DNA of 33,886 nt from Acidobacteriota bacterium (lineage in GTDB: Bacteria; Acidobacteriota; Blastocatellia; Pyrinomonadales; Pyrinomonadaceae). Both the position numbers and the translations under genes were made by a program. The stretch spans positions 1-33,886 of the forward strand of contig QHXG01000184.1 in assembly GCA_003222845.1 (NCBI GenBank), given 5' to 3'. Below are positions 4,896-33,886 of the stretch, piece by piece (position 1 is the first letter of the stretch; every line of letters begins with the position of its first letter). The notes beneath the pieces are model-generated. The model was not told where the DNA came from. It searched no databases and saw nothing but the letters and a program-made list of their open reading frames with translations.

Positions 4896-5972
4896 ATGGC
4901 TGAGTTGATTGTCAAATATCCGGATCGCGCGGCCGAGCATTTTCCGATCAACCGCCTGCGCGTCACCATTGGCCGCTCGGCGCGCAACGATCTGTGCATT
5001 CCGGATCCGTTTGCGTCGCGTGTGCATGCCGAGGTGCGCAGCGAAGGAGACGAGTACTTTCTCCAGGATCTGGGATCGGCTAACGGCACGCTTTACAACG
5101 GCACGGTACTCGAAAAGCCGGTAACGTTGACGCGGGGGGGCCGCATCCAGATTGGTGAGACCGAGATCATCTTCAATGACAGTTCATTTCCGCTCAGCAG
5201 CGGCGCGACGATGATCACCGACAATTCGGCGTCGATTCCCGAAGCCACCATCGCGCTCTCATCGGCTGATCGCACGACTTCCGGTCTGTTCGAGGCCATC
5301 GAAGGTGCGCGCACGCAATCTGACGATGCTACGGCCCGGCATCCCGCGAAGCAGAGCGACCTGCTGGCACTGATCAGCAAAGTCGGGGTCACGCTGTTGG
5401 CTTCCACAACTCTACATCAGACTCTGGAGGACATCGTTTCACTGGTGTTCGAAGCGGTCCCAGCCGATCGCTGCATGGTCATGATGCGCGACCAAAAGAA
5501 TACTGAGCTGAAGGTCGCCGTGGCGCGCTTGCGCGATCGCGTCGGCGAAGTCGGGGAGATTCGCATCAGCCGTTCCGTGATCGACGAAGTAGTGGCAAAC
5601 GGCAAATCGGTGTTGACCTCAGACGCGCAGGCCGATCCACGATTTGCTGGCGGCACTGTCATGCTGCAAGGAGTGCGGTCCGTGCTGGCCGTGCCGCTCG
5701 GGGTCGGCGCCAATGTTTTCGGGATCATTTACGCCGATTCGCCTCTGGCGGATAACCGTTTCACCGGAGATCATTTGAAACTGCTGACGACGCTGGCTTC
5801 GGTGGCTGCCATTCGCGTCGAGAACGCCCGCCTGACCGAAGAGCAGATTGAGCGCGAACGACTCGAACGCGAGCAGCAGGTTGCCAGCGAGATTCAACAG
5901 CGGTTCCTCCCCTCGAAAGCGCCGCAAGTGACTGGCTATGAATTGCAGGGCATCAGCTTTCCCTGTTATTAG
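4896..5972 (+). CDS. FHA-GAF half of a SpoIIE-type phosphatase, ended by a premature amber codon
   Basis: This 358-codon frame encodes an FHA domain at about residues 20-95 (GRSARNDLCI, RVHAEV, DLGSANGTLYNG), a GAF domain at about 170-310, and a coiled signalling helix (EEQIERERLEREQQVASEIQ). It then begins a SpoIIE/PP2C phosphatase domain (RFLPSKAPQVTGYELQGISF). TAG at 5970-5972 stops it just before IGGDYYDF, the first metal-binding motif. The same frame continues open to 6620 with the rest of the phosphatase. Family members read P-A-R-E/Q-V-G-G-D here, so a GAG or CAG codon changed to TAG explains the stop in one step. An uninterrupted protein would be 574 aa and would be expected to counteract the kinase encoded at 2513. 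As it stands the product is a regulatory stub. A sequencing error or stop-codon suppression cannot be excluded. Confidence 0.8.
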   Translation: MAELIVKYPDRAAEHFPINRLRVTIGRSARNDLCIPDPFASRVHAEVRSEGDEYFLQDLGSANGTLYNGTVLEKPVTLTRGGRIQIGETEIIFNDSSFPLSSGATMITDNSASIPEATIALSSADRTTSGLFEAIEGARTQSDDATARHPAKQSDLLALISKVGVTLLASTTLHQTLEDIVSLVFEAVPADRCMVMMRDQKNTELKVAVARLRDRVGEVGEIRISRSVIDEVVANGKSVLTSDAQADPRFAGGTVMLQGVRSVLAVPLGVGANVFGIIYADSPLADNRFTGDHLKLLTTLASVAAIRVENARLTEEQIERERLEREQQVASEIQQRFLPSKAPQVTGYELQGISFPCY

Positions 5973-6620
5973 ATCGGCGGCGATTATTATGACTTCATCG
6001 AGCGTGAAAATTGCAACCTGCTCGTCGCGCTGGGAGACGTGTCCGGCAAAGGAACGGCGGCGGCGTTATTGATGTCATCGCTGCACGCTGCGGTACACGC
6101 GCAGGCCGACGCGAATGACTCCATAGTGAAGACCATCGCCGCGGTCAACCGCTATTTGGTTGAGAGCATCCCGCCAAATCGATTCGTCACTCTTTTCTAC
6201 GCCGAACTCGATCCTAAAAATGGCTCGCTCGCTTTTTTGAACGCCGGCCATAATCCACCGCTGATTGTTCACGCCGGTGGCACGATGGAACAACTTGCTT
6301 CCGGAGGTTTGCCGCTGGGCATTCTGGCGGATGCGGATTTTCGAGAAGGACGCACGAAGCTTTATCCCGGCGACGTGCTGGTGATTTATTCGGATGGAGT
6401 TTCGGAAGCAGTCAATCCAAACGGCGAAGAATTTGGCGCCACGCGACTCTACGAAGTAGTCGCGCGCAACCTCGACACTTCGGCGAGTGGCATACGTGAC
6501 CGCATCGAATCTGCGCTCACAAAATTCTGCCAGGGCACGCCCGCCGCCGACGACATCACGCTGGTAATTGTCAAGCGCCTGGCCGAAGCCACGGAAGTGG
6601 CCGCCGCGGCCGCGAGTTAG
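5973..6620 (+). pseudogene. Severed SpoIIE/PP2C phosphatase domain, in frame with the upstream FHA-GAF part
   Basis: Directly after the amber codon, the same frame encodes nearly the whole phosphatase domain. It has IGGDYYDF, GDVSGKG, FVTLFYAELD, NAGHNPPL, YSDGVSEA and the terminal ADDITLVIV. These carry the metal-binding aspartates of SpoIIE/RsbU-type serine phosphatases. No frameshift or further stop is present, which points to a very recent mutation, an error, or real read-through. No good independent start exists: the first candidate, GTG at 6039 within GDVSGKG, would lose the first two metal ligands and has no ribosome site. Confidence 0.75.
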
Positions 6621-14480: not shown

Positions 14481-16178
14481 TCACTGCTGGTTTGGTTGGA
14501 TACGGCGAGGACGACCATCGTTCGCATCTTTCGAAACAGCCCTTGGCGGGGCCGAGTTTTTGGTCTCAGTCTTAGATTTGTTTTCAATCGGCATCGAAGT
14601 GGCTTTTACTTTCGATTCCACGTTGGCCTTGGATTCGCCGCCGCCCACTGGCTTCGCATCGGGGCTGATGAGCCCAGACTTGGCTGGGTCGGCTGCATCG
14701 TCGCCATTCTCTTCCGCTTCAGTGGCGGCCTTGGTTTCCTTCGCCTCCTCATTCAAAGCAGCAGCCTTCTTGTCCTTCCCTGGGTTGGGTGTTTCGTCAT
14801 CCGGACCTTCGGCGATCTGGAAATTGATCTGCGTGCCGAAACGCGGACTCAATGCGCGATAGATATTCCCGGCGATCGCTGCGGGCAAATGCGCATGGGC
14901 GTCGGTGCCACGCGTAATCACCACTACAGCCAGCCGCGGGTTAACAACCGGAGCGTACGAAGTGAACAATCCGAGCCATGCTCCCTGGCCAATGCACGTG
15001 CCGGTTTTGCCAGCGACCGTTTGTTCGGGGTTATAGGCTTTCTTCCCCGAACCGTAATTGACCGCGCCTATCATTCCCGGCAGCATCCGTTTCCAGGCTT
15101 CATTCTCGACACTAATCTTACGCCGGACTTCGGTCTTGAAATGCGAGTTCTCTTCGACGGTACGCGGCACATGCGGCATTAACAGCTTGCCGCCGTTCGA
15201 CATCGCCGACACCAAGGCCGCCAACTGAATCGCGGTCACTTCGAAATCGTCCCCATGAGAACTCATATGGTTTACCGCGTATCCCGATTTGAATAGCGGC
15301 ACCCTGCCGGCAGACTCGTTTATATAATTGACGCCGGTCTTTTCGCCGAGGCCCAACTCGCGGGCATAAGTGACCATCTTGTCGAAACCAACCTGGCCGC
15401 CTACGTGTTGGAAGTACGAATTGTTTGAATAGGCAAGCGCGTCCGTCAAATCGATCTTATAATTGCCACCGTCACTCACGGTCTCGATTGGCTGAATGAC
15501 CTTCTCGCATAAGCCGGCGACGCCGGTGACGAGCTTGATAGTCGAACACGGTTTGAAGCCGCGCCGCAGCGCCCAGTCCTGATTGACGACGGTGTACACG
15601 CGACCCGTCTTAGGATCCATGACTACCACCGTGCCGGCATGATGACCAAGAGCCTCAACTGCGACCTTGCGTACTTCAAGATCCTCACCGACACTATTAT
15701 CTTTCGCGATGTTCTCCTGAACTTCGTTACGTAAACCCTCATCGAGAGCGCGCTGCCGCGCAATCGCTGCCTGGCGCGCAGCCTCGGCGCGGCGACGTGC
15801 TTCTTCCAGATCTCGGCGATGCTTTGATCCGAACTTGCGCATCTCTGCGGCACGCTCGCGCTTGCTAAGTTTGTGGCCGGCGCGTTTCTCGATCTTGGCT
15901 ATATAGGCGGCCTCCTCGCGGGCATTTCGTTGCCGCTCAGCGCGCAACTCTCGTTTCGACAGATGGACGCGTTCACGCCCACGACGCCCCGAGCGCGCTG
16001 CCTCTCGACGCTCGCGTTTGGACATCCGACCACCGCGCTCTGCCTTGCGCGCTGCAGCCCGGCCACGCGCTCGTTTGCCGCGGGCGAAGGTCCCAACTGA
16101 AATTGACCCAATTAACGTGAAGAGAAGGAAGAGATTAAAAGCTAAAAGTGCGACCCTGAGGGAACGTTTTTGGTTCAT
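14481..16178 (-). CDS. Penicillin-binding transpeptidase with a basic, repeated N-terminal region
   Basis: This 565-aa protein has one membrane anchor at about residues 6-30. About 130 Arg/Lys-rich residues follow, containing three SKRE repeats (MSKRERREA, LSKRELRAE, LSKRERAAE). The transpeptidase domain starts at about 180. The active-site motifs are all present: CSTIK (Ser212, Lys215), YSNNSYF (SxN) and KTGT at 391-394. No glycosyltransferase or typical class B dimerisation domain is visible, so it is a minimal D,D-transpeptidase that cross-links peptidoglycan. The C-terminal about 90 residues are acidic, Lys/Glu/Ala-rich and disordered. ATG 16178 has GGGAG 7 nt upstream; a TTG at 16184 would add only two residues. 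Confidence 0.88.
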   Translation of the reverse strand: MNQKRSLRVALLAFNLFLLFTLIGSISVGTFARGKRARGRAAARKAERGGRMSKRERREAARSGRRGRERVHLSKRELRAERQRNAREEAAYIAKIEKRAGHKLSKRERAAEMRKFGSKHRRDLEEARRRAEAARQAAIARQRALDEGLRNEVQENIAKDNSVGEDLEVRKVAVEALGHHAGTVVVMDPKTGRVYTVVNQDWALRRGFKPCSTIKLVTGVAGLCEKVIQPIETVSDGGNYKIDLTDALAYSNNSYFQHVGGQVGFDKMVTYARELGLGEKTGVNYINESAGRVPLFKSGYAVNHMSSHGDDFEVTAIQLAALVSAMSNGGKLLMPHVPRTVEENSHFKTEVRRKISVENEAWKRMLPGMIGAVNYGSGKKAYNPEQTVAGKTGTCIGQGAWLGLFTSYAPVVNPRLAVVVITRGTDAHAHLPAAIAGNIYRALSPRFGTQINFQIAEGPDDETPNPGKDKKAAALNEEAKETKAATEAEENGDDAADPAKSGLISPDAKPVGGGESKANVESKVKATSMPIENKSKTETKNSAPPRAVSKDANDGRPRRIQPNQQ

Positions 16179-16517
16179 CGGCAACTCCCGTCGTCAAAAA
16201 AATACAGTGTGCTCGAGGCGGAACCGGGGTAAAACTCTTACTGCTTTGATTTTCGCGCCGAGGGGCGGCGCACCGTTTCGTCCTTGTAAGCCTAAGAAAC
16301 CGTTAAGGGCGCTCGAATTCCGATATCAAAACCTCTTAGTTCTAATCCGCCAACCGCCAGAAGTGAGGCGGGATCGTCTCCCGCGGGCAGCCTCATCGGG
16401 GAGTTTGATTTGAGGCCGCGCCAACTATAACATCGGTTGTAAGGAAACGGCAACCCGATATTTGTCGAAATTGTAACTAACTCAATTGCCGTATGGCGCG
16501 CGTTTTGCCGACGACCG
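16179..16517. other. Divergent intergenic region between the PBP and histidine kinase genes
   Basis: No supported gene lies in these 339 bases. The region should carry the promoters of both flanking genes. It holds a small palindrome at 16368-16384 (GCGGGA-TCGTC-TCCCGC), like the one at 6648-6664. I could not assign convincing -35/-10 pairs. Confidence 0.45.
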
Positions 16518-24003: not shown

Positions 24004-24924
24004 ATGCTAGTCCCTTTTCAAATGCGTGCCCCTTCGAAGCGCTCGACGACGACGGCGAGCATCCTCATCGTTTCGCTCGCGGCCCTGGGATGGAGCGTGA
24101 ATCGATTGCTGCCGCGCGCGCGGGGCTTCGAAGGGGTGCCCGCCGAAGCAGAAGGCAGGAGGCAGGAGGCAGTAGGCAGTAAGCAGAACAGAAGTCCATC
24201 CGGCTCAGAAACCAACCAATGGTTCCTCTCTGACCGCAAACTGATCGACTCGGATAACGACGGTATCCCCGACGCTGTCGAACTACACACGTTTCAAGAT
24301 CGGGATCACTTCCGGCGGTGGTTCACGGCAATCGCCGAAATGCAGTTCTATCAGTTGAGCGATCAATGGAAGATCGAGCAGCGCGATTGCGCCGGACTCG
24401 CCCGCTTCGCAATTCGTGAAGCGCTGCGGCGTCACGATCGCCTCTGGTTTCAGAAGATGGGGCCGAGCTACGAAACTGTGGCGTCGGATGTTGCCGGTTT
24501 TGATCTCGATCACAATCCGCTCGGAGAAAAAATCTTTCGCACTGATTTCGGATCTTTTAATGAGAGCGATCTGCAAGACGGGAGATTCTCCGAATTCGCC
24601 GATGGCCGAGCGCTCAAGAATTTCAACACAATTTTTGTGAGCCGCGATCGTCGCGAAGCCGAAGCCGGCGATCTGCTTTTCTTCTATCAACCCTGGGTCC
24701 AGAAGTTTCCTTATCACGTGATGATTTTCCTGGGCTCACCGCGCGTGGCGCCAAATGGAGAAAGAGACTGGGTTGTGTATCACACCGGCTCGTCACCGAT
24801 AGACAAGGGGACGGTTAAGAAGGTTGAACTTTCGGTGCTCGAACATCATCCCGATCCGCGCTGGCGGCCGGTAGCCGGCAACAGACATTTTCTTGGGTTT
24901 TATCGACTGAAGATTCTTGAATGA
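24004..24924 (+). CDS. DUF1175 (YfaT-like) secreted protein with an NlpC/P60-like motif set
   Basis: This 306-aa exported protein has a signal anchor at about 19-35. A low-complexity insert follows (about 47-65, encoded by a GGCAGGA repeat), then a calcium-type loop (DSDNDGIPDAVEL from residue 82), then the DUF1175 domain. Within it RDCAGLARFAIREAL (Cys129), AGDLLFF (222-227) and YHVMIFLG (His238) follow the Cys...GDLLFF...His pattern of NlpC/P60 cysteine peptidases. I therefore infer a papain-like hydrolase or amidase fold. In E. coli the related yfaT gene neighbours the macroglobulin gene yfaS. Here too the macroglobulin gene follows, after a 211-nt gap filled with repeats. ATG 24022 is an alternative start. 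Confidence 0.8.
   Translation: MLVPFQMRAPSKRSTTTASILIVSLAALGWSVNRLLPRARGFEGVPAEAEGRRQEAVGSKQNRSPSGSETNQWFLSDRKLIDSDNDGIPDAVELHTFQDRDHFRRWFTAIAEMQFYQLSDQWKIEQRDCAGLARFAIREALRRHDRLWFQKMGPSYETVASDVAGFDLDHNPLGEKIFRTDFGSFNESDLQDGRFSEFADGRALKNFNTIFVSRDRREAEAGDLLFFYQPWVQKFPYHVMIFLGSPRVAPNGERDWVVYHTGSSPIDKGTVKKVELSVLEHHPDPRWRPVAGNRHFLGFYRLKILE
24145..24189 (+). repeat. GGCAGGA tandem repeat inside the DUF1175 gene
   Basis: Direct repeats of a 7-nt unit (GAAGGCAGGAGGCAGGAGGC, then AGTAGGCAGTAAGCAG) are read in frame as AEAEGRRQEAVGSKQ. The segment lies between the membrane anchor and the folded domain. Confidence 0.7.
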
Positions 24925-24959: not shown

Positions 24960-24998
24960 ATGATATGAAACTCGCTATGAGATTGACGCAAGGTTTTT

Positions 24999-25092
24999 CA
25001 ACCGCAGAGGGCACAGAGGGTCTCGCAGAGGAACGCAGAAATTGGTTTTCCTCTGGCTCCTCTGCGAAAAACTCAGAGTCCTCTGCGGTTAA
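24999..25092. repeat. AACCGCAGAGG...CCTCTGCGGTT inverted-repeat element, copy 1
   Basis: An element of about 94 nt with ends AACCGCAGAGG and CCTCTGCGGTT. Internal GCAGAGG/CCTCTGCG units also pair, so nearly the whole element could fold as a long imperfect hairpin. Related copies lie at 30072-30161 and, inside a reading frame, at 33247-33337. Confidence 0.85.
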
Positions 25093-25135
25093 ATCTTCGT
25101 TTTAGTAACCAGTGTCTCCAAGGAGGCAATCGATC

Positions 25136-28100
25136 GTGTCTGAAACTAATCAACGCCTGCGCAGCTTATTGCTGACCGCGGCGATTTATCTAATCGTCGT
25201 CGCATCCGCTTTTGGCTTCAACGTGATTCGTTCGCGCGCGGCGCGGAACCAACCTGCGCAGCCCGCACCGCCAGAGACGCCCGCGCCGACTGTCGCCAGC
25301 ACTAAGCCCTATTTCTCGCTGACGACGAATCGCACTTATTCGCCAAACGAATCGTCGCGCGTCTGGGCCAGCTATCAAAACATCGATCATCTAGACTTCC
25401 GCGTCTATCGTGTCAAAGACCCGAACAAATTTTTCAAGCAACTCGACGACCCCCATCAGATGGGCGAGAAAGAGAAGGAAGAAATCTCGCAGGGCTATGG
25501 CGTCCGGATTTCTCTGCTCGAACGTACGCACCGATTAAAGTTTTCGCTGTTCACAGCCGTCAGAGATTACGTCCGCACGCATTTGTTGAAACAACACCGC
25601 GAGACTTTCAATCAAAAGTTCCGCAAAGAGACTGAACCGACCCGCACGCCGCTCAACGTAGCCGACTATGCACGCGTGCCTCTGCTCAATCCCGATCAGA
25701 AGGTGAAAGACTGGCGCGAGCCGCTGCCGCCGCTCGAAAACGAATACGACAGCCGCATGGTCACGGTCGGAAAACAGGAACCGGGCGTCTATCTGATCGA
25801 AGCCGTTAATGGCGATCTGCGCGCCTATTCGATCGCCATCGTCAGCAATCTAACGATGATCGAAAAGACGACGAAGGACGGCCAGGTCTTGGTCTATGTT
25901 GTCGATCGTAAGACCGGTGCGCCGCACGAAGGCGTCAGTATCGAAGTCACCAAAAGCAAACAGGTCCTGGCCAGCGGCACGACGGATAAGAGCGGTGTCT
26001 TTAAAACCGAAGTGAAACAGCCAACCGCCAAGGAGGGCGCAGAAGAGAATACCGACGAAGAGGAATCGAATAAGAGCGCATACCTGATCATGGCGCGCGA
26101 GCGCGACAACTTCGTCATTTCCGACGTTGAATCGTTCTATTTCGGCGGTGAGGGCGGCGAAGACGATGCGCTGACGAGCGAGGACGTCACCGGCTACATC
26201 TACACAGATCGTCCAATCTATCGCCCGGCGCAGAAAGTTTATTTCAAAGGCATCCTGCGGCAATGGGGCCGAAACGGCTATCAACTGCTCGACAGCAAAA
26301 CCGTCGATGTAACGATCGAAGATCCGAACAATGGCAAGATTTTTGAGAAGGAATTGCCGCTATCGACGCGCGGCAGTTTCAGCGGCGACATAGACCTCGC
26401 CGACGAAGCGCCGCTCGGCAACTACAACATCACGGCCGCGGTTGGCAACGCGAAATCGAGTGGCTACTTCGAAGTTCAGGAATACAAGAAGCCGGAATTC
26501 AAAGTAACGGTCAAGGGCCCGAAAGACTTTGCCGCCGTCGGCGAGAAAGTGAAGTTCACGGTCAACGCCAATTATTTCTTCGGCGCGCCGGTGACAAATG
26601 CCGACGTTCATTACTACATCTACAAGCAACGTTATTACCACTGGTGGTGGGGCAATGAATCAAACGATGAATTTGACGATGCCGCCGGACCAGAGAACGA
26701 AGGTGGCGACGAAGAAGACTCCGGTTACTACGGCAGCGATCTGGTGACTGAAGGCGATGGCACGCTCACTTCCCGCGGCGAGATGACCGTCGATTTCGAA
26801 GTGCCGAAGCCTGAAGATAAGGACGAGTGGGACTATTCATATCGACTCGAAGCGCAGGTCACTGACGCCTCGCGCCGCGAGATGCACGGCCAGGCATCCT
26901 TCATCGGCACGCGCGGCAAAACAGTCGCCGACGCTTACCCGGAGCGTTATCTCTATTACCAGGGCGACACCGCGAAGATCAGAGTAAAGACTGCTGACTA
27001 TGCGGGCCATCCGGTTTCCGAAAAGGTCACGCTCAAGTTCATCGAACAGAAATACGAGAAGGTCGAGAAGGACGAGGAGTACAACGGCTACAAATACAAG
27101 AACTACGATTACATCCTGCATGAACGCGAACTGGCTTCAGCAGACGTGAACACTGACAGCCAGGGCAATGCAGCTTACGATTTCACGGTGCCATCGCCCG
27201 GCAGCATTTATGTCAAAGCCATCCTCAACGAAAACGGAAAAGAAATCGTGAATCGCGGCGGTTCGTTCTGGGCGCCTGATAAGAAAGGCGAATGGTCCGA
27301 TTTTGAATATCGCGACTATGACGAAAAGTCGATCAAGCTCGTACCCGACAAAAAATCTTATAAGCCCGGCGAAACGGCTCACGTGCTCGCGATGCTGCCG
27401 GCCGATAAGGCTCATCTGTTGGTAACGACCGAACTATCGAATGTCATGACCGTGCGAGAAATTGATTCGGCGGGCCGCAGCGTTGTGATCGACGTGCCAA
27501 TCGAGCAACGCTACGAACCGAACGTCTACCTCGATGTGTCTTTCGTGAAAGACAGCGACATGTATAGCCAGAGCCAACTCATCGTCGTGCCCGCGCGCGA
27601 CAAGATGCTCAAGCTCGACATCGTACCGAACAAGAAGGAATTCAAGCCGCGCGACGTGGCCTCATATACAATCGTGGCGCGGAACGATGATGGCTCGCCC
27701 GCCGCTAACGCGGAAGTTAGTCTCGGCATTGTCGACGAAGCGATCTACAGCATCCAGGCGGAAACTGCCCGTAATATCAAGCGCGAGTTCTATGGCAAGC
27801 GCTACGACGAAGTGCAGACGAGTCTCGCGATTCATTACAAGTTCACGGGCTTTGCCGGCGACAAGCCGGTCGATCTCGCGAAGAACAAATCTGCTTATCA
27901 ACTCGCTGATTTCAAGAACGAAAGTGCTTACGCTGAACCCACCATTCGTCGCGAGTTCAAAGACACAGCCTTTTGGCAGCCGGATGCGGTGACCGGTGGC
28001 GATGGCAAAGCCACGGTAAATTTCAAGCTGCCGGACAACTTAACTACTTGGCGCGCCACCGCGCGTGCGGTCACCGCCGACACCCGCGTCGGCTCAGCCG

Positions 28101-30064
28101 TGCAGAAAACGATCGCGCGCAAAGATGTGATCATGCGTCTGGAGATGCCGCGCTTTCTGACTGAAGGGGACACGGTGACTATCTCAGGCGTCGTGCACAA
28201 CTTCCTCAAGAGTGACAAGTCGACGAAGATCTCGCTCGATCTTAACGGCGCGCAGTTGCTTGACTCGCCGAGCGAAACTGTGACGATTAAACAAAACGGC
28301 GAGCATCGAGTCGATTGGCGCGTGCAGGCCAATCAAGTCGGCAAGTTGACCCTACTGGCCAAGGCGCTTACCGATACTGAGTCCGACGCGGTCGAGATGA
28401 CGATGGAAATCGTGCCGCACGGTTTGAAACAGACGGTCGGCAACACGACCACGTTGACGCAGAACGATGCGGACCAAACCTTCTCGCTCGATCTTTCAGC
28501 GAATCCGGATAGTCAAGCACGGAACCTGCGCATTGAAGCATCACCGTCGCTGGCCGGAACTCTGTTTGGCGCACTCGACTATTTGACGAGTTTTCCATAC
28601 GGCTGCACGGAACAGACGATGTCCAGCTTCCTGCCCAATGTGATCGTCGCGCAGACCTTAAAGGACGTGCCGACCGCGAAGATTCGCGCGTCGAATGATC
28701 TCGATAAGAAAGTTCAGCGCGGATTGGATCGTCTGTATGCTTATCAGCATGACGATGGCGGTTGGGGCTGGTGGAAAGACGACAAGAGCGATCCATTCAT
28801 GACGGCTTATGTGGTTGACGGTCTAACACTCGCGAGCAAAGCCGGCTATCAAATCGATCTCGGGCGGCGCGATCAAGGTCGCGAGAAACTCGCGTCTCTG
28901 CTCAACGCCGGTAAGAACGACAACGGTAATCCGATCGATGATGAAACCAGGAGCTACATGATCTATGCCTACACCGAAAGTGGTGACAGCGATGGTCATT
29001 ATCTCGAAGCGCTTTATGCGAAGCGCGGGAGTCTCGGGCCTTACGGCCGCGCACTGCTGGCGCTCGCTTTGCACCAGCGCAAAGATGGACGCGCGAAAGA
29101 AATTGCCGGCGCCATTGCCGGCTCAGCTCAGACTGACGAATTCGAAGCGCACTGGCAAACCGCACGCGTCAACGATTATGGCCGCAACGTCTATCTTGAC
29201 GCGGAAGCCACGGCGCTTTCATTGAAAGCTCTGTCGCAAATCGATCCGAACAACGCGCTGTTGCCGAAGGTCGCGCGCTGGTTGGTAAAGAATCGGCAGA
29301 ACGGTTATTACTGGCTTTCGACGAAAGAAACTGCCTTCGCGATCTATGGCCTGACTGATTATTTGAAAGTCAGTCACGAACTCTCGCCCGATTATTCGTT
29401 CGAGATTTATTTGAACGGCGCGCAGGTCTCTCAGCAACACGTCGGCGCGGGCGAGGCGACAAGCGCGCAGGACTTTGTGATCACGAAGAAGGCGGGTGAA
29501 GTCAGCAACAACAATCAGATTCGCGTGGTTAAGCATGGCCGCGGCGCGCTATATGTTTCGGCTTCGGTTCAATACTTTACTGCGGAAGACAACGTCGCCG
29601 CTCAGTCGTCGGGGAATTTGAAGATCTCGCGCGAGTACTTGCGTCTGCATGTCACCGAAAACGCAGACGGAAAATCGAGCTGGAAGATCGAACCGATGTC
29701 GGGAGAGTTGCGCTCCGGAGATCTGATCGTCGTGCGTCTGCATCTCACCGGCGCGCGGGCACAGTACCTGATGATCGAAGATCCGATTCCTGCGGGCGCC
29801 GAGCAGGTCGCGCAGGTCAGCGGCATCAACTTGAATTACTCGACCGGACAATGGACCGATTGGTACAGCGCGCGCGAGTTCCGCGATAACCGCACCGCCA
29901 TCTTCGTCGATTACTTTAATGGCGACGCGACGTTCCAATACGCGATGCGCGTTGAGGTGCCGGGTGAGTTTCGCATCGCGCCCGCGCGGGCTGAGTTGAT
30001 GTATCAGCCGACGATACAAGCCAATACCAGCAACGATCGGTTGCGGATTTTGGATAAGAAGTGA
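25136..30064 (+). CDS. Bacterial alpha-2-macroglobulin with thioester motif
   Basis: This predicted periplasmic protease trap of 1642 aa has an N-terminal membrane anchor at about 10-28 with no lipobox. A series of macroglobulin (beta-sandwich) domains follows, including the family signature YIYTDRPIYRPAQKVYFKGI. The bait and alpha-2-macroglobulin regions come next (FKDTAFWQPDAVTGGDGKAT, FKLPDNLTTWRATARAVTAD). The thioester motif GCTEQ (1156-1160; Cys1157 and Gln1160) opens an all-helical thioester domain (HDDGGWGWWKDD), and a C-terminal receptor-like domain ends the protein. An intact thioester implies covalent capture of attacking proteases. GTG 25136 is chosen over the in-frame GTG 25112 because AGGAGG lies 9 nt upstream of it. 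Two acidic Asp/Glu/Gly-rich inserts (about 300-345 and 510-540) are unusual. Confidence 0.93.
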   Translation: MSETNQRLRSLLLTAAIYLIVVASAFGFNVIRSRAARNQPAQPAPPETPAPTVASTKPYFSLTTNRTYSPNESSRVWASYQNIDHLDFRVYRVKDPNKFFKQLDDPHQMGEKEKEEISQGYGVRISLLERTHRLKFSLFTAVRDYVRTHLLKQHRETFNQKFRKETEPTRTPLNVADYARVPLLNPDQKVKDWREPLPPLENEYDSRMVTVGKQEPGVYLIEAVNGDLRAYSIAIVSNLTMIEKTTKDGQVLVYVVDRKTGAPHEGVSIEVTKSKQVLASGTTDKSGVFKTEVKQPTAKEGAEENTDEEESNKSAYLIMARERDNFVISDVESFYFGGEGGEDDALTSEDVTGYIYTDRPIYRPAQKVYFKGILRQWGRNGYQLLDSKTVDVTIEDPNNGKIFEKELPLSTRGSFSGDIDLADEAPLGNYNITAAVGNAKSSGYFEVQEYKKPEFKVTVKGPKDFAAVGEKVKFTVNANYFFGAPVTNADVHYYIYKQRYYHWWWGNESNDEFDDAAGPENEGGDEEDSGYYGSDLVTEGDGTLTSRGEMTVDFEVPKPEDKDEWDYSYRLEAQVTDASRREMHGQASFIGTRGKTVADAYPERYLYYQGDTAKIRVKTADYAGHPVSEKVTLKFIEQKYEKVEKDEEYNGYKYKNYDYILHERELASADVNTDSQGNAAYDFTVPSPGSIYVKAILNENGKEIVNRGGSFWAPDKKGEWSDFEYRDYDEKSIKLVPDKKSYKPGETAHVLAMLPADKAHLLVTTELSNVMTVREIDSAGRSVVIDVPIEQRYEPNVYLDVSFVKDSDMYSQSQLIVVPARDKMLKLDIVPNKKEFKPRDVASYTIVARNDDGSPAANAEVSLGIVDEAIYSIQAETARNIKREFYGKRYDEVQTSLAIHYKFTGFAGDKPVDLAKNKSAYQLADFKNESAYAEPTIRREFKDTAFWQPDAVTGGDGKATVNFKLPDNLTTWRATARAVTADTRVGSAVQKTIARKDVIMRLEMPRFLTEGDTVTISGVVHNFLKSDKSTKISLDLNGAQLLDSPSETVTIKQNGEHRVDWRVQANQVGKLTLLAKALTDTESDAVEMTMEIVPHGLKQTVGNTTTLTQNDADQTFSLDLSANPDSQARNLRIEASPSLAGTLFGALDYLTSFPYGCTEQTMSSFLPNVIVAQTLKDVPTAKIRASNDLDKKVQRGLDRLYAYQHDDGGWGWWKDDKSDPFMTAYVVDGLTLASKAGYQIDLGRRDQGREKLASLLNAGKNDNGNPIDDETRSYMIYAYTESGDSDGHYLEALYAKRGSLGPYGRALLALALHQRKDGRAKEIAGAIAGSAQTDEFEAHWQTARVNDYGRNVYLDAEATALSLKALSQIDPNNALLPKVARWLVKNRQNGYYWLSTKETAFAIYGLTDYLKVSHELSPDYSFEIYLNGAQVSQQHVGAGEATSAQDFVITKKAGEVSNNNQIRVVKHGRGALYVSASVQYFTAEDNVAAQSSGNLKISREYLRLHVTENADGKSSWKIEPMSGELRSGDLIVVRLHLTGARAQYLMIEDPIPAGAEQVAQVSGINLNYSTGQWTDWYSAREFRDNRTAIFVDYFNGDATFQYAMRVEVPGEFRIAPARAELMYQPTIQANTSNDRLRILDKK

Positions 30065-30071
30065 TGGGGAA

Positions 30072-30161
30072 TTAACCGCAGAGGATCGCAGAGGTTTCCG
30101 CAGAGGTCACGGAGGAAAACTTTGCGTCCTCTGCGAAATCCTCCGCGTTCTCTGCGGTTAA
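30072..30161. repeat. AACCGCAGAGG...CCTCTGCGGTT inverted-repeat element, copy 2
   Basis: A 90-nt element starting TTAACCGCAGAGG and ending TCTGCGGTTAA, beginning 7 nt after the macroglobulin stop. It is closely related to copies 1 and 3 and able to fold on itself. Confidence 0.85.
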
Positions 30162-30200
30162 AAACGTTCTTTCGTCTAATCAAGTACTTAAGAGGCAGAT

Positions 30201-31049
30201 ATGATCACAGCAACTTTGCAGACTTGGCTGGACAGCGCGCGGGCAGTACTGAGAGACGCCCGGGCCCTCGCAATCTTCGCCGGCCTGTACGCCCTATTAC
30301 TCGTTACCTTCTATATCTTCATCGCCACGCGCGAAGCGACGGTCTGGCAGGTGCTGATCACTTACGCGTTCCTGGTGCTGATGCCGGCCGAGTTCTTTGT
30401 CTTTCAGTCGGCGATCGTCGAGCATGCGCGCATCGGAAAGTTTTCTTGGCGACAGATCGTTCGCGGGGCCATCAAGCTCTTTATCGCGACGATTCCCATC
30501 GTTGTGATCGCGTTGGTATTTTGGGCTCTGCTCGACAAGTTTCAGCTTCGCTATCCCACTCCAAAAGCTGCGCTGGCCGAATCACTGCGCGGTGCGCCTA
30601 AACCGCAGCCACTTCATTGGCCGACAGTGATTTTTGCGACCATCCGATTTCTAATATTTGCCATCGCGTTGCCGCTGGCTACGATTCATCTTTGGGCCAG
30701 AGTTAGCGCCGGTGACATTCGAACATTGTTCAGCGGCGGCGCGGAAGCGAGCGTGAGACGAATCGGTGGATGGCTCGCGCGCGCCTTCGCCTCCGATTCA
30801 GTTTTGATTTACGCACTTGGCGCGATCCTGTTTGCTTTCATACCTTACGCGGTTATCTTCATCAAGATTTCTCCCAAAGGCACAAAGACCGACTTCGCGG
30901 TGTTCATCGCGCAGCTCTTGATTGCTTTCTGTTTCTCGCTGATCGGTTGGATCGTCACCGTCACGGCCCTCTCAAAGCTGAACACCCAAACATCAATAGC
31001 CGATGTCCCTCAACGCGCGCCGAGCACGCCGGCGGAGGCGCCCGCGTGA
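30201..31049 (+). CDS. Six-helix integral membrane protein of unknown function
   Basis: This 282-aa protein shows six hydrophobic helices, at about 23-45, 52-75, 92-116, 140-165, 196-220 and 230-255. The tail is short, Pro/Ala-rich and cytoplasmic or periplasmic (RAPSTPAEAPA). I do not recognise a family, and no catalytic motif is evident. ATG 30201 has AGAGG 6 nt upstream. It lies between the macroglobulin gene and the transpeptidase/SpoIID gene on the same strand, so it likely serves the same envelope process, for example as an anchor or transporter for one of them. Confidence 0.72.
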   Translation: MITATLQTWLDSARAVLRDARALAIFAGLYALLLVTFYIFIATREATVWQVLITYAFLVLMPAEFFVFQSAIVEHARIGKFSWRQIVRGAIKLFIATIPIVVIALVFWALLDKFQLRYPTPKAALAESLRGAPKPQPLHWPTVIFATIRFLIFAIALPLATIHLWARVSAGDIRTLFSGGAEASVRRIGGWLARAFASDSVLIYALGAILFAFIPYAVIFIKISPKGTKTDFAVFIAQLLIAFCFSLIGWIVTVTALSKLNTQTSIADVPQRAPSTPAEAPA

Positions 31050-31140: not shown

Positions 31141-33886
31141 GTGACTTTCGCAAACTTCCAGATTCGAAACATCGATTACACATCACGCAGGCACTCGCTT
31201 GTTCTGACCTGCGCATGCGTAGCACTTTTGTTTCTCAACTCTCCTCGCCCAAAAGATCGTTGGCGGATATTCGACTGGCCAAATAAATCGCCAGCGCTCC
31301 GTGAAGCAGCGATCGATTCCGCATTGCAGCAGACTGCAAACGACGCGCTCGGCCAACGCGAAGGCGCAATCATCGTGATGGATGCGCAGACTGGCCGCAT
31401 ACGCGCGTTGGTGAATTCGCAACTTGCTTTCGGTCAAGCGTTGATGCCCGGCTCGACGATGAAACCTTTCACCGCATTAGCTGCTCTACGTGCCGGATTG
31501 ATTGATAACAATTCACGCACAGTTTGTCCGGGCCGCTTTACCGGCCGCGACTTTTCACTTCCCTGCGTCCATGAAGATCATTTGCCGCCATTCACACCAT
31601 CGCAAGCCATCGCATATTCGTGCAACTACTACTTCGCCACGCTCGGTCAAAGGCTGGGCCGAGACAAGCTAGTCGAGACCGCGCGGCAGTTTGGATTCGG
31701 CCAAACGGCGGGAATCGAAGAGACTGCTGGAACGCTGCGGCCTTGCGAGACCGGCAACAACACGCGGATTCGCGAGAGCGCTCACGCTTCGGAGCAAAGC
31801 GATTGCGACGCGCGCGAAGCGATTGGTGAAAGCGATCACATTCAAATCACGCCGGTCCAATTGCTGATGGCCTATACCGCGCTGGTGAATGGCGGGCGTT
31901 TATGGCAACCTCGAATTAGCCGCTCCGAACCCATCGAACGATCACGAATCGACATATCTCAACAACATCGCGCGATCATCATCGAAGGCATGCGCGGCGC
32001 CGTGCGCTACGGTACGGCAAGGAACGCGCACCTTGATTCGCTCCCGCTTTACATCCTGGGCAAGACTGGAACCTCGCAGCCCGCGAAAGGCTTTCGTTCC
32101 AATGGTTGGTTCGTCGGCTTTGGTGCGCATGCGCCGGCGAACTCATCTACGGAGCCGGCTCCAAACGAAATCGATCTTGCTGTGCTCGTTATGGTCGCAC
32201 ACTCTCACGGTGCCGAAGCTGCGACGTTGGCGAAACCCATATTTGAAACGTTTGCCGAAAGATTCGAAGACGTTCACCACAGAGACACAGAGGACCACAG
32301 AGACAGCACAGAGACAAATTACGCAATCCGCAATCCGCAATCCGCAATCGTCAGCGTTCATCTGGTCACTGAGAACGTCACGAAGGAAATGTCTTTGGAA
32401 GACTACGTCCTCGGCGTGATGCGCGCGGAAGGAAGCATGGAAACTGAGCCCGAAGCGCTGAAAGCTCTAGCAATCGCGATTCGCACCTACGCTCTCAAGA
32501 ATCACGGACGCCACGCGAAAGATGGATACGACTTTTGTTCGACCACGCACTGCCAGCGATTTGTCAGCGGAGACCCGACCGTAAGGGAGGGTGCAGACGC
32601 GAGGGGAAGCACCCTCCCTGACGGTCGGATTTCCGCCGCCGTTCGCACGACCGAGGGCCAGATCCTCATTGACGAACGCGGTCAACCTGTCGATTCATAC
32701 TTTGGCGCCTCGTGCGGCGGCGAGACGGCGAACATTGGGACGCTCTGGGGCAAGACTCCGCCTGCGTATCTACGCGGTGTGCATGACGAGTTCTGCATCA
32801 GCGGCCCACATGCAAACTGGACCGATGTGATCTCTCGCGCCGATCTATTGCGGGCGCTGCAAAGCGATGCTCGCACCAATGTGGGTTCAAGACTCGATCA
32901 AATCACTCTCAGCAAGCGCGATGAAACCGGACGTGCAGAAGTCATCACGCTCGACGGCGAACATCGAAAGATCGTGCGCGGATGGGATTTCAAGATAATT
33001 GTGGGCCGCGTCCTGGGATGGAACCTGCTGAAGAGTTCCCGATTTGAAGTCTCTCGCCACGGATCGAATTTCATGTTTCGCGGCAGCGGCTTCGGCCACG
33101 GCCTGGGTCTTTGTCAGGAAGGCGCGCACGTGATGGCGCAACGCGGGGCAAACTATCAGCGGATTCTGGAGAAATATTTTCCGGGCACCCACGTGGGCGC
33201 AGAACATCGTGTTGCATCGGTGCAGCGCGGATACGAATCGACTGCTTTAACCGCAGAGGGCGCAGAGGTTGTCGCAGAGAAAAGCAGAGGTTTTCCTCAG
33301 CGTCCTCTGCGAAATCCTCTGAGCCCTCTGCGGTTAAGTAAACCCCTCGTCGATCATGCCAGCCAAAAAGTACTCACGAGCGAACATTTTCGCGTTACCT
33401 ATCCCAAGGGTGTCGACCGTCGCGATGCCGATCAAGTCCTGAGCACTTTGGAATCCGCCCGCGCTGATTATCTCCATCGGGCGAATGCGGCCTCAGTTTC
33501 GATTGCTAACATCCCCACGCTTGAAATCCGCCTCAACGAAAGCACTGGTGATTTCACCGCGCGCACCGGTCAACCCTTGTGGGCCGCCGCGGCGACGAAG
33601 GGAAATCGCATCGAGCTGCAACCACTCGCTCTGCTGAAGCACCGTGGCGTGCTCGTCCCCACGCTGCGCCACGAACTAGCACACGCGGTAATCGATACTG
33701 TCAGTAACAATCGCGCGCCTCGTTGGCTGGAAGAAGGATTCGCGATTTATCTCGCTGGCGAAGGCGCAACGATCTCACACTACAGAATTCCAAGCTCCAT
33801 ATCACCCACCGAACTTGAAAGACGACTCGAACGACCGAGTTCGCAGCAAGACATGCGCGCTTTGTACACCGCTGCCTACTTCAATG
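31141..33886 (+). CDS. Transpeptidase - SpoIID/LytB - gluzincin peptidase fusion (C-terminus outside the window)
   Basis: One frame stays open from GTG 31141 to the window end, at least 915 codons. A membrane anchor (about 21-34) is followed by a penicillin-binding transpeptidase domain at about 50-385 with GSTMK (Ser105, Lys108), YSCN (160-162) and KTGT (308-311). A SpoIID/LytB domain at about 400-705 has MSLEDYVLGVMRAEGS with the expected catalytic Glu430, RTYAL, ASCGGETAN and GSGFGHGLGLCQEGAH. SpoIID enzymes cut glycan strands from which stem peptides have been removed. A third domain from about 740 has HELAH (844-848) and WLEEGFA (Glu865), a gluzincin metallopeptidase of the peptidase-MA type. 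No glycosyltransferase domain is visible. Repeats are translated in the linkers and in one SpoIID loop. GTG 31141 lacks a strong ribosome site. It follows the macroglobulin and membrane-protein genes. Confidence 0.85.
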   Translation, partial: MTFANFQIRNIDYTSRRHSLVLTCACVALLFLNSPRPKDRWRIFDWPNKSPALREAAIDSALQQTANDALGQREGAIIVMDAQTGRIRALVNSQLAFGQALMPGSTMKPFTALAALRAGLIDNNSRTVCPGRFTGRDFSLPCVHEDHLPPFTPSQAIAYSCNYYFATLGQRLGRDKLVETARQFGFGQTAGIEETAGTLRPCETGNNTRIRESAHASEQSDCDAREAIGESDHIQITPVQLLMAYTALVNGGRLWQPRISRSEPIERSRIDISQQHRAIIIEGMRGAVRYGTARNAHLDSLPLYILGKTGTSQPAKGFRSNGWFVGFGAHAPANSSTEPAPNEIDLAVLVMVAHSHGAEAATLAKPIFETFAERFEDVHHRDTEDHRDSTETNYAIRNPQSAIVSVHLVTENVTKEMSLEDYVLGVMRAEGSMETEPEALKALAIAIRTYALKNHGRHAKDGYDFCSTTHCQRFVSGDPTVREGADARGSTLPDGRISAAVRTTEGQILIDERGQPVDSYFGASCGGETANIGTLWGKTPPAYLRGVHDEFCISGPHANWTDVISRADLLRALQSDARTNVGSRLDQITLSKRDETGRAEVITLDGEHRKIVRGWDFKIIVGRVLGWNLLKSSRFEVSRHGSNFMFRGSGFGHGLGLCQEGAHVMAQRGANYQRILEKYFPGTHVGAEHRVASVQRGYESTALTAEGAEVVAEKSRGFPQRPLRNPLSPLRLSKPLVDHASQKVLTSEHFRVTYPKGVDRRDADQVLSTLESARADYLHRANAASVSIANIPTLEIRLNESTGDFTARTGQPLWAAAATKGNRIELQPLALLKHRGVLVPTLRHELAHAVIDTVSNNRAPRWLEEGFAIYLAGEGATISHYRIPSSISPTELERRLERPSSQQDMRALYTAAYFN
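32276..32350 (+). repeat. CACAGAGA and CAATCCG direct repeats, translated
   Basis: The ACCACAGAGACACAGAGG-type string (32276-32315) is followed by tandem CAATCCG units (about 32321-32350). They are read in frame as HHRDTEDHRDSTETN and YAIRNPQSAI, between the transpeptidase and SpoIID domains. Confidence 0.75.
32575..32628. repeat. 20-bp stem palindrome inside the SpoIID domain coding sequence
   Basis: The left arm 32575-32594 (CCGACCGTAAGGGAGGGTGC) and the right arm 32609-32628 pair over 20 bp with one mismatch around a 14-nt loop. The element is 54 nt, exactly 18 codons, read as PTVREGADARGSTLPDGR, which looks like an inserted surface loop. Confidence 0.85.
33247..33337. repeat. AACCGCAGAGG...CCTCTGCGGTT inverted-repeat element, copy 3, translated
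   Basis: This 91-nt copy, with ends TTAACCGCAGAGG and CCTCTGCGGTTAA, lies wholly inside the fusion gene and carries no stop in that frame. It encodes a linker (starting LTAEGAEVVAEKSRG, ending LSPLRLS) between the SpoIID and gluzincin domains. Confidence 0.88.

Follow-up and report, generated by a model that had tools for sequence, protein, structure and literature searches.

A fused transpeptidase–SpoIID–gluzincin-type protein in the MagE/YfaQ position of an Acidobacteriota macroglobulin operon

Introduction

Bacterial alpha-2-macroglobulins (A2Ms) are known from two settings, beside a penicillin-binding protein (PBP) or within a Mag operon. The first setting is represented by YfhM–PbpC, in which a Type I A2M with a thioester accompanies PBP1c. 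Type II A2Ms lack the CXEQ thioester motif. The mag operon (magABCDEF) of Pseudomonas aeruginosa encodes a periplasmic A2M complex (PMC5764988). Deletion of magE prevents processing of the macroglobulin MagD, and MagE was suggested, as a guess, to be a chaperone (PMC5764988). MagC is classified as inactive and peptidoglycan-binding (PMC10318531). According to a 2025 study, the operon protects P. aeruginosa from peptidoglycan-targeting T6SS effectors, by a mechanism given as unknown (PMC12663445). Neither PMC5764988 nor PMC12663445 mentions SpoIID, a transpeptidase or a metalloprotease. In Escherichia coli, yfaQ-yfaS-yfaT encodes a DUF2300 protein, an A2M and a DUF1175 protein.

SpoIID is a lytic transglycosylase, with structures from Clostridioides difficile (5i1t) and Bacillus anthracis (4rwr). 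The C. difficile enzyme binds zinc, and the substitutions E101A, C140A and H145A each abolish its activity in vitro (PMC6221140). One chlamydial SpoIID is active on intact sacculi as well (PMC6635528).

Here we analyze a locus of an Acidobacteriota bacterium in which a PBP-type transpeptidase, a SpoIID domain and a metallopeptidase-like domain share one reading frame. The window, meaning the whole stretch of DNA analyzed (33,886 nucleotides), makes up contig C441 in full; the draft genome to which it belongs measures 6.05 Mb. The named relatives of this genome are Pyrinomonadaceae and other Acidobacteriota.

Results

One open reading frame carries three domains

A preliminary description of this DNA reported a frame running open from 31141 to the window edge and encoding three intact domains in a single exported protein. 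Both statements hold. The frame is stop-free through the final base, which is also the end of the contig, and the three domains are borne out by family scores, motifs and predicted fold. The parts of the fused gene are as follows.

31141..33886, + strand: fused transpeptidase–SpoIID–gluzincin ORF, 915 codons up to the contig end
31363..32121, + strand: PBP transpeptidase domain (PF00905), residues 75-327, 141.7 bits
32257..32350, + strand: linker 1, dispersed genomic repeats with 51 further matches in the same genome
32380..33195, + strand: SpoIID/LytB domain, residues 414-685, PF08486 72 bits, TIGR02669 165 bits
33247..33337, + strand: linker 2, an in-frame dispersed palindrome with 33-nt arms that are 91% complementary
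33361..33886, + strand: gluzincin-type metallopeptidase domain with HELAH and WLEEG motifs, its last ~20 amino acids off the contig

An in-frame ATG lies upstream at 31003. A hydrophobic segment at the N-terminus (residues ~16-32) is likely a signal peptide or anchor. The C-terminus runs off the contig, and aligned relatives put the missing part at an estimated ~20 residues. Elsewhere in the window, an FHA/GAF gene with a PP2C-like (RsbU-type) phosphatase (4896-6620, + strand) is apparently split by a stop or frameshift into ORFs 4896-5972 and 6039-6620.

The transpeptidase score far exceeds the Pfam cut-off of 22.1 bits. All three motifs are present: GSTMK at residues 104-108 (SxxK, S105/K108), SCN at 160-162 (S160/N162) and KTGT at 308-311 (K308). 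In a full-length AlphaFold2 (AF2) model, the first domain matches class B PBPs with an E value of 2e-16 (Foldseek). It shares fold and motifs with the transpeptidases of PBP2 and SpoVD, but it lacks their dimerization/pedestal domain and carries extra invariant cysteines. Matches to class D beta-lactamase and BlaR models are weak. A second PF00905 protein of the window (14481-16184, − strand, 136 bits) stands alone.

The SpoIID domain also scores well above its cut-offs (23 bits for PF08486 in Pfam, 83 bits for TIGR02669 in NCBIfam). It contains a glutamate, E430, a GHGLGLCQ block (652-659) and a candidate zinc site (H458/C466/H470/C471). On alignment with C. difficile SpoIID, E430 corresponds to the catalytic E101, and C466, H470 and C471 correspond to C140, H145 and C146. 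The fused protein thus aligns with the characterized lytic transglycosylases at the catalytic Glu and at C. difficile-type Cys/His zinc residues. Unlike SpoIID of C. difficile and B. anthracis, it is a fusion and lies outside any sporulation locus; no SpoIIP was found beside the gene. The SpoIID region is poorly modeled in the full-length AF2 prediction. The other SpoIID proteins of the genome (contigs C242 and C556) have neither a transpeptidase nor a gluzincin domain. The one on C556 (L180, 445-4257; 1271 aa) joins SpoIID to TolB-like repeats.

The third domain was harder to place by sequence. HELAH occupies residues 844-848 (33670-33684) and WLEEG residues 862-866 (33724-33738). Of the three family searches that the preliminary description proposed, PF00905 and PF08486 returned clear matches, whereas PF13485 (Peptidase_MA_2) gave 14.0 bits against a Pfam cut-off of 32.4. 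Pfam and PDB sequence searches returned no significant assignment for this domain. Sequence models by themselves therefore do not prove a gluzincin; the predicted fold does. AF2 was run on a complete orthologue (L036), with an alignment limited to the window and related-locus sequences. The gluzincin domain was predicted with a pLDDT of 93.6, and this model matches M9 collagenase peptidase domains and M1 aminopeptidases (Foldseek, best E 3e-4, TM about 0.6). With HExxH, a downstream glutamate as third ligand and a predicted zincin fold, the domain belongs to the gluzincin class on this model. It differs from the M9 and M1 enzymes in its minimal size of ~175 residues and in sequence, at about 12% identity.

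The fusion is conserved among relatives

The fused protein is present in 28 of 60 related genomes (its own included), at 41-69% identity. The transpeptidase and SpoIID domains are joined in every one of these, which upholds the earlier claim of a peptidoglycan cutter joined to a peptidoglycan cross-linker. The survey of relatives suggested in the preliminary description bore out a conserved fusion: looking for stops, frameshifts or separate genes, we found all three domains in a single frame in 24/28, including all six genomes of the same genus. In three of the four exceptions a neighboring ORF of its own encodes the gluzincin, and in the fourth the gene is cut by a contig end.

The key residues hardly vary. 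All 28 proteins share SxxK, SCN, KTGT, the SpoIID Glu, the residues of GHGxGxCQ and three cysteines without exception. The gluzincin HE and downstream Glu are kept in 24/24 relatives, and the second His in 23. One same-genus relative (L018) has HELAL in place of HELAH, and that copy may be inactive.

Both inter-domain linkers and one SpoIID loop (32567-32636) consist of dispersed repeats. These have tens of genomic copies, among them intergenic ones at 24997-25093 and 30072-30162. All three stretches are in frame and two are palindromic, resembling the Rickettsia palindromic elements found inside genes.

Elsewhere in the phylum, other classes of Acidobacteriota have these domains next to A2M–DUF1175 as fused, split or permuted genes. 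The single-gene form is seen in L043 and L121. A transpeptidase gene with a SpoIID–gluzincin gene occurs in L116-L118 and L044, and a transpeptidase gene with a permuted gluzincin–SpoIID gene in L125-L129. In L125, L126, L127 and L129 the change is a circular rearrangement that places gluzincin ahead of SpoIID, with the separate transpeptidase gene just upstream.

The fused gene belongs to a Mag/Yfa-type operon

The genes directly upstream had been left unused in the preliminary description, apart from a DUF1175 neighbor. They are a DUF1175 gene, a thioester A2M gene and a gene for a membrane protein.

24004..24924, + strand: DUF1175 protein (MagC/YfaT family, NlpC/P60-like), 215 bits, with conserved C129, H238 and H260
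25112..30064, + strand: A2M with a bait-region domain, 1650 aa, intact thioester motif PYGCTEQ (C1165)
30201..31049, + strand: six-helix integral membrane protein of no known family, between A2M and fusion, conserved in the class

The order DUF1175–A2M–membrane protein–fusion, on one strand, is kept in each of the 21 relatives whose flanking sequence is long enough, and also in L178 from another family. Genes downstream of the fusion differ between relatives. Among genomes listed in both surveys, DUF1175 and the fusion occur together in 5 and are both missing in 11. This four-gene unit is a Mag/Yfa-type A2M operon. Its order of DUF1175, A2M and a MagE-type gene matches the Mag complex, but its A2M keeps the thioester, unlike a Type II A2M, and it adds the six-helix membrane protein. 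MagA (DUF2138), MagB and MagF (DUF2135) were not found among the scanned upstream neighbors; the next gene after the fusion is off the contig. The window also resembles YfhM–PbpC in placing a thioester A2M beside a penicillin-binding transpeptidase. By HMM score, however, its A2M is closer to MagD/YfaS, and the transpeptidase is a lone one with no glycosyltransferase.

The NlpC-like nature of the DUF1175 neighbor was correctly recognized in the preliminary description. Where the alignment reaches these positions, the Cys and both His are kept in Acidobacteriota, E. coli YfaT and the Pseudomonas-type homologues alike. The proposed role of DUF1175 as partner amidase of SpoIID is uncertain, because the homologue MagC is classified as inactive and peptidoglycan-binding (PMC10318531). 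DUF1175 could be a source of stem-free glycan for SpoIID, or could play no such part. Since the chlamydial enzyme cuts intact sacculi, a partner amidase is not strictly required.

The fused protein is related to MagE and YfaQ

On sequence comparison, the fused protein is homologous to MagE/YfaQ (DUF2300; P. aeruginosa PA4488, E. coli b2226) and occupies their slot, with all three predicted active sites intact. This conclusion rests on an HMM match, on intermediate sequences, on profile scores against shuffles and on kept gene order. A YfaQ HMM matches the fused L178 protein across the transpeptidase and SpoIID regions (E 3.7e-8), and YfaQ itself scores 27 bits for SpoIID, above the 23-bit threshold. 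In profile comparisons with MagE, the SpoIID domain scores 72 against a column-shuffle maximum of 20.8, and the gluzincin domain 28.7 against 19.4 (0/150). The direct comparison of MagE with the Blastocatellia transpeptidase profile is weak (23.0, with 1/150 shuffles as high). Through the permuted clade as an intermediate, it reaches 32.2 against a shuffle maximum of 27.6 (0/120), and the permuted-clade transpeptidase matches that of Blastocatellia with 84% probability. The Pfam DUF2300 model (PF10062) gave no match on the window protein. A DUF2300 survey with even class sampling returned few matches, and no phage homologues of YfaQ were found.

MagE/YfaQ and the fused protein share the slot after DUF1175 and A2M, the domain order, SxxK, the SpoIID Glu and HExxH. 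YfaQ and its homologues in likely Pseudomonas genomes, where the order MagC-MagD-MagE is kept, retain LGSxWK, SCG, RVKTW, REEYVARV-DREA and HEYLH...DE. MagE (~545 aa) thus has SCG and KTW in place of SxN and KTG, and it has no recognizable SpoIID GHGxGxxQ block. The preliminary description called the joined architecture unusual; it is also found, in degenerate form, in YfaQ of E. coli and MagE of Pseudomonas.

A shortened MagE, consisting of the HExxH segment and lying directly after A2M, occurs in some Mag-type operons of gammaproteobacteria. DUF2300 proteins of ~165 aa with HExxH are seen in L158 (13696-14184), L176 and L160; the one in L158 lies beside a thioester A2M.

Discussion

The identity of the fused protein is well supported, and from it we infer a mechanism. 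We consider it somewhat probable that the protein is an intact MagE-type subunit of a Mag-like A2M operon, acting in the periplasm alongside A2M and DUF1175 during attacks on the envelope. The effect of the magE deletion on MagD (PMC5764988) and the protection that the mag operon gives against peptidoglycan-targeting T6SS effectors (PMC12663445) speak for this reading. Under this proposal, DUF1175 would bind or trim peptidoglycan stems and SpoIID would cut damaged or stem-free glycan. The transpeptidase would then re-crosslink the wall. A2M would use its bait region and its thioester to trap proteases. The gluzincin would cleave a protein substrate, for which A2M is our favored candidate, in maturation or in clearance. 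A protein, perhaps A2M, is a more likely target of this domain than the wall, because MagE reduced to its HExxH part still lies beside A2M. What the comparisons show are the domains, the residue conservation, the linkage and the homology to MagE/YfaQ; the activities, their division among the domains and A2M as substrate are inferred, and the substrates of the module are carried over from a distant organism. SxN and KTG are gone in MagE/YfaQ, and wall cross-linking is therefore not needed everywhere by the module.

Three other explanations were weighed. The fused protein could be a general wall-remodeling enzyme for growth, division or peptidoglycan turnover and a mere passenger in the A2M operon, its gluzincin processing wall proteins. 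All motifs are intact, as this would have it, and in bacteria that do not sporulate, septal remodeling can involve SpoIID proteins (PMC6635528). We nevertheless find it unlikely, given how tightly the gene is linked to A2M and DUF1175, how it co-occurs with them, and its absence from 32/60 relatives, which makes it no housekeeping gene. The protein might instead be a sensor or scaffold that places the A2M complex on damaged wall: the transpeptidase would bind stems or beta-lactams without turnover, SpoIID would bind glycan and the protease would be the sole catalyst. The missing class B PBP pedestal and the weak class D beta-lactamase and BlaR matches fit such a role. So do the degenerate transpeptidase motifs of MagE, in which HExxH stays, and the binding of peptidoglycan by MagC (PMC10318531). 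SxN, KTG and the SpoIID catalytic residues are, however, invariant over 28 diverged relatives, unlike in MagE, and to this account too we give little credence.

That unrelated activities were joined through read-through or assembly error is very improbable. The linkers are built of dispersed repeats, which are known to cause misassembly, and the gene is split in three relatives; yet the same one-frame fusion recurs in 24/28 independent genomes, some of them on large contigs. Chance or misassembly as the source of the architecture was rejected on this recurrence. Local assembly errors could hide in the linker repeats, though the relatives support the architecture.

For the family as a whole, we offer a more tentative proposal, possible but short of probable. 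MagE and YfaQ may be eroded descendants or cousins of a transpeptidase–SpoIID–gluzincin enzyme, their HExxH domain processing the partner macroglobulin. The A2M operon would then be at root a protease trap combined with peptidoglycan repair, a scheme that would join Type I (A2M–PBP1c) and Type II (Mag). The fused protein connects the two known bacterial settings of A2M, and the Acidobacteriota form suggests concrete chemistry, namely a cross-link, a glycan cut and a protein cut, for the DUF2300 proteins of E. coli and Pseudomonas.
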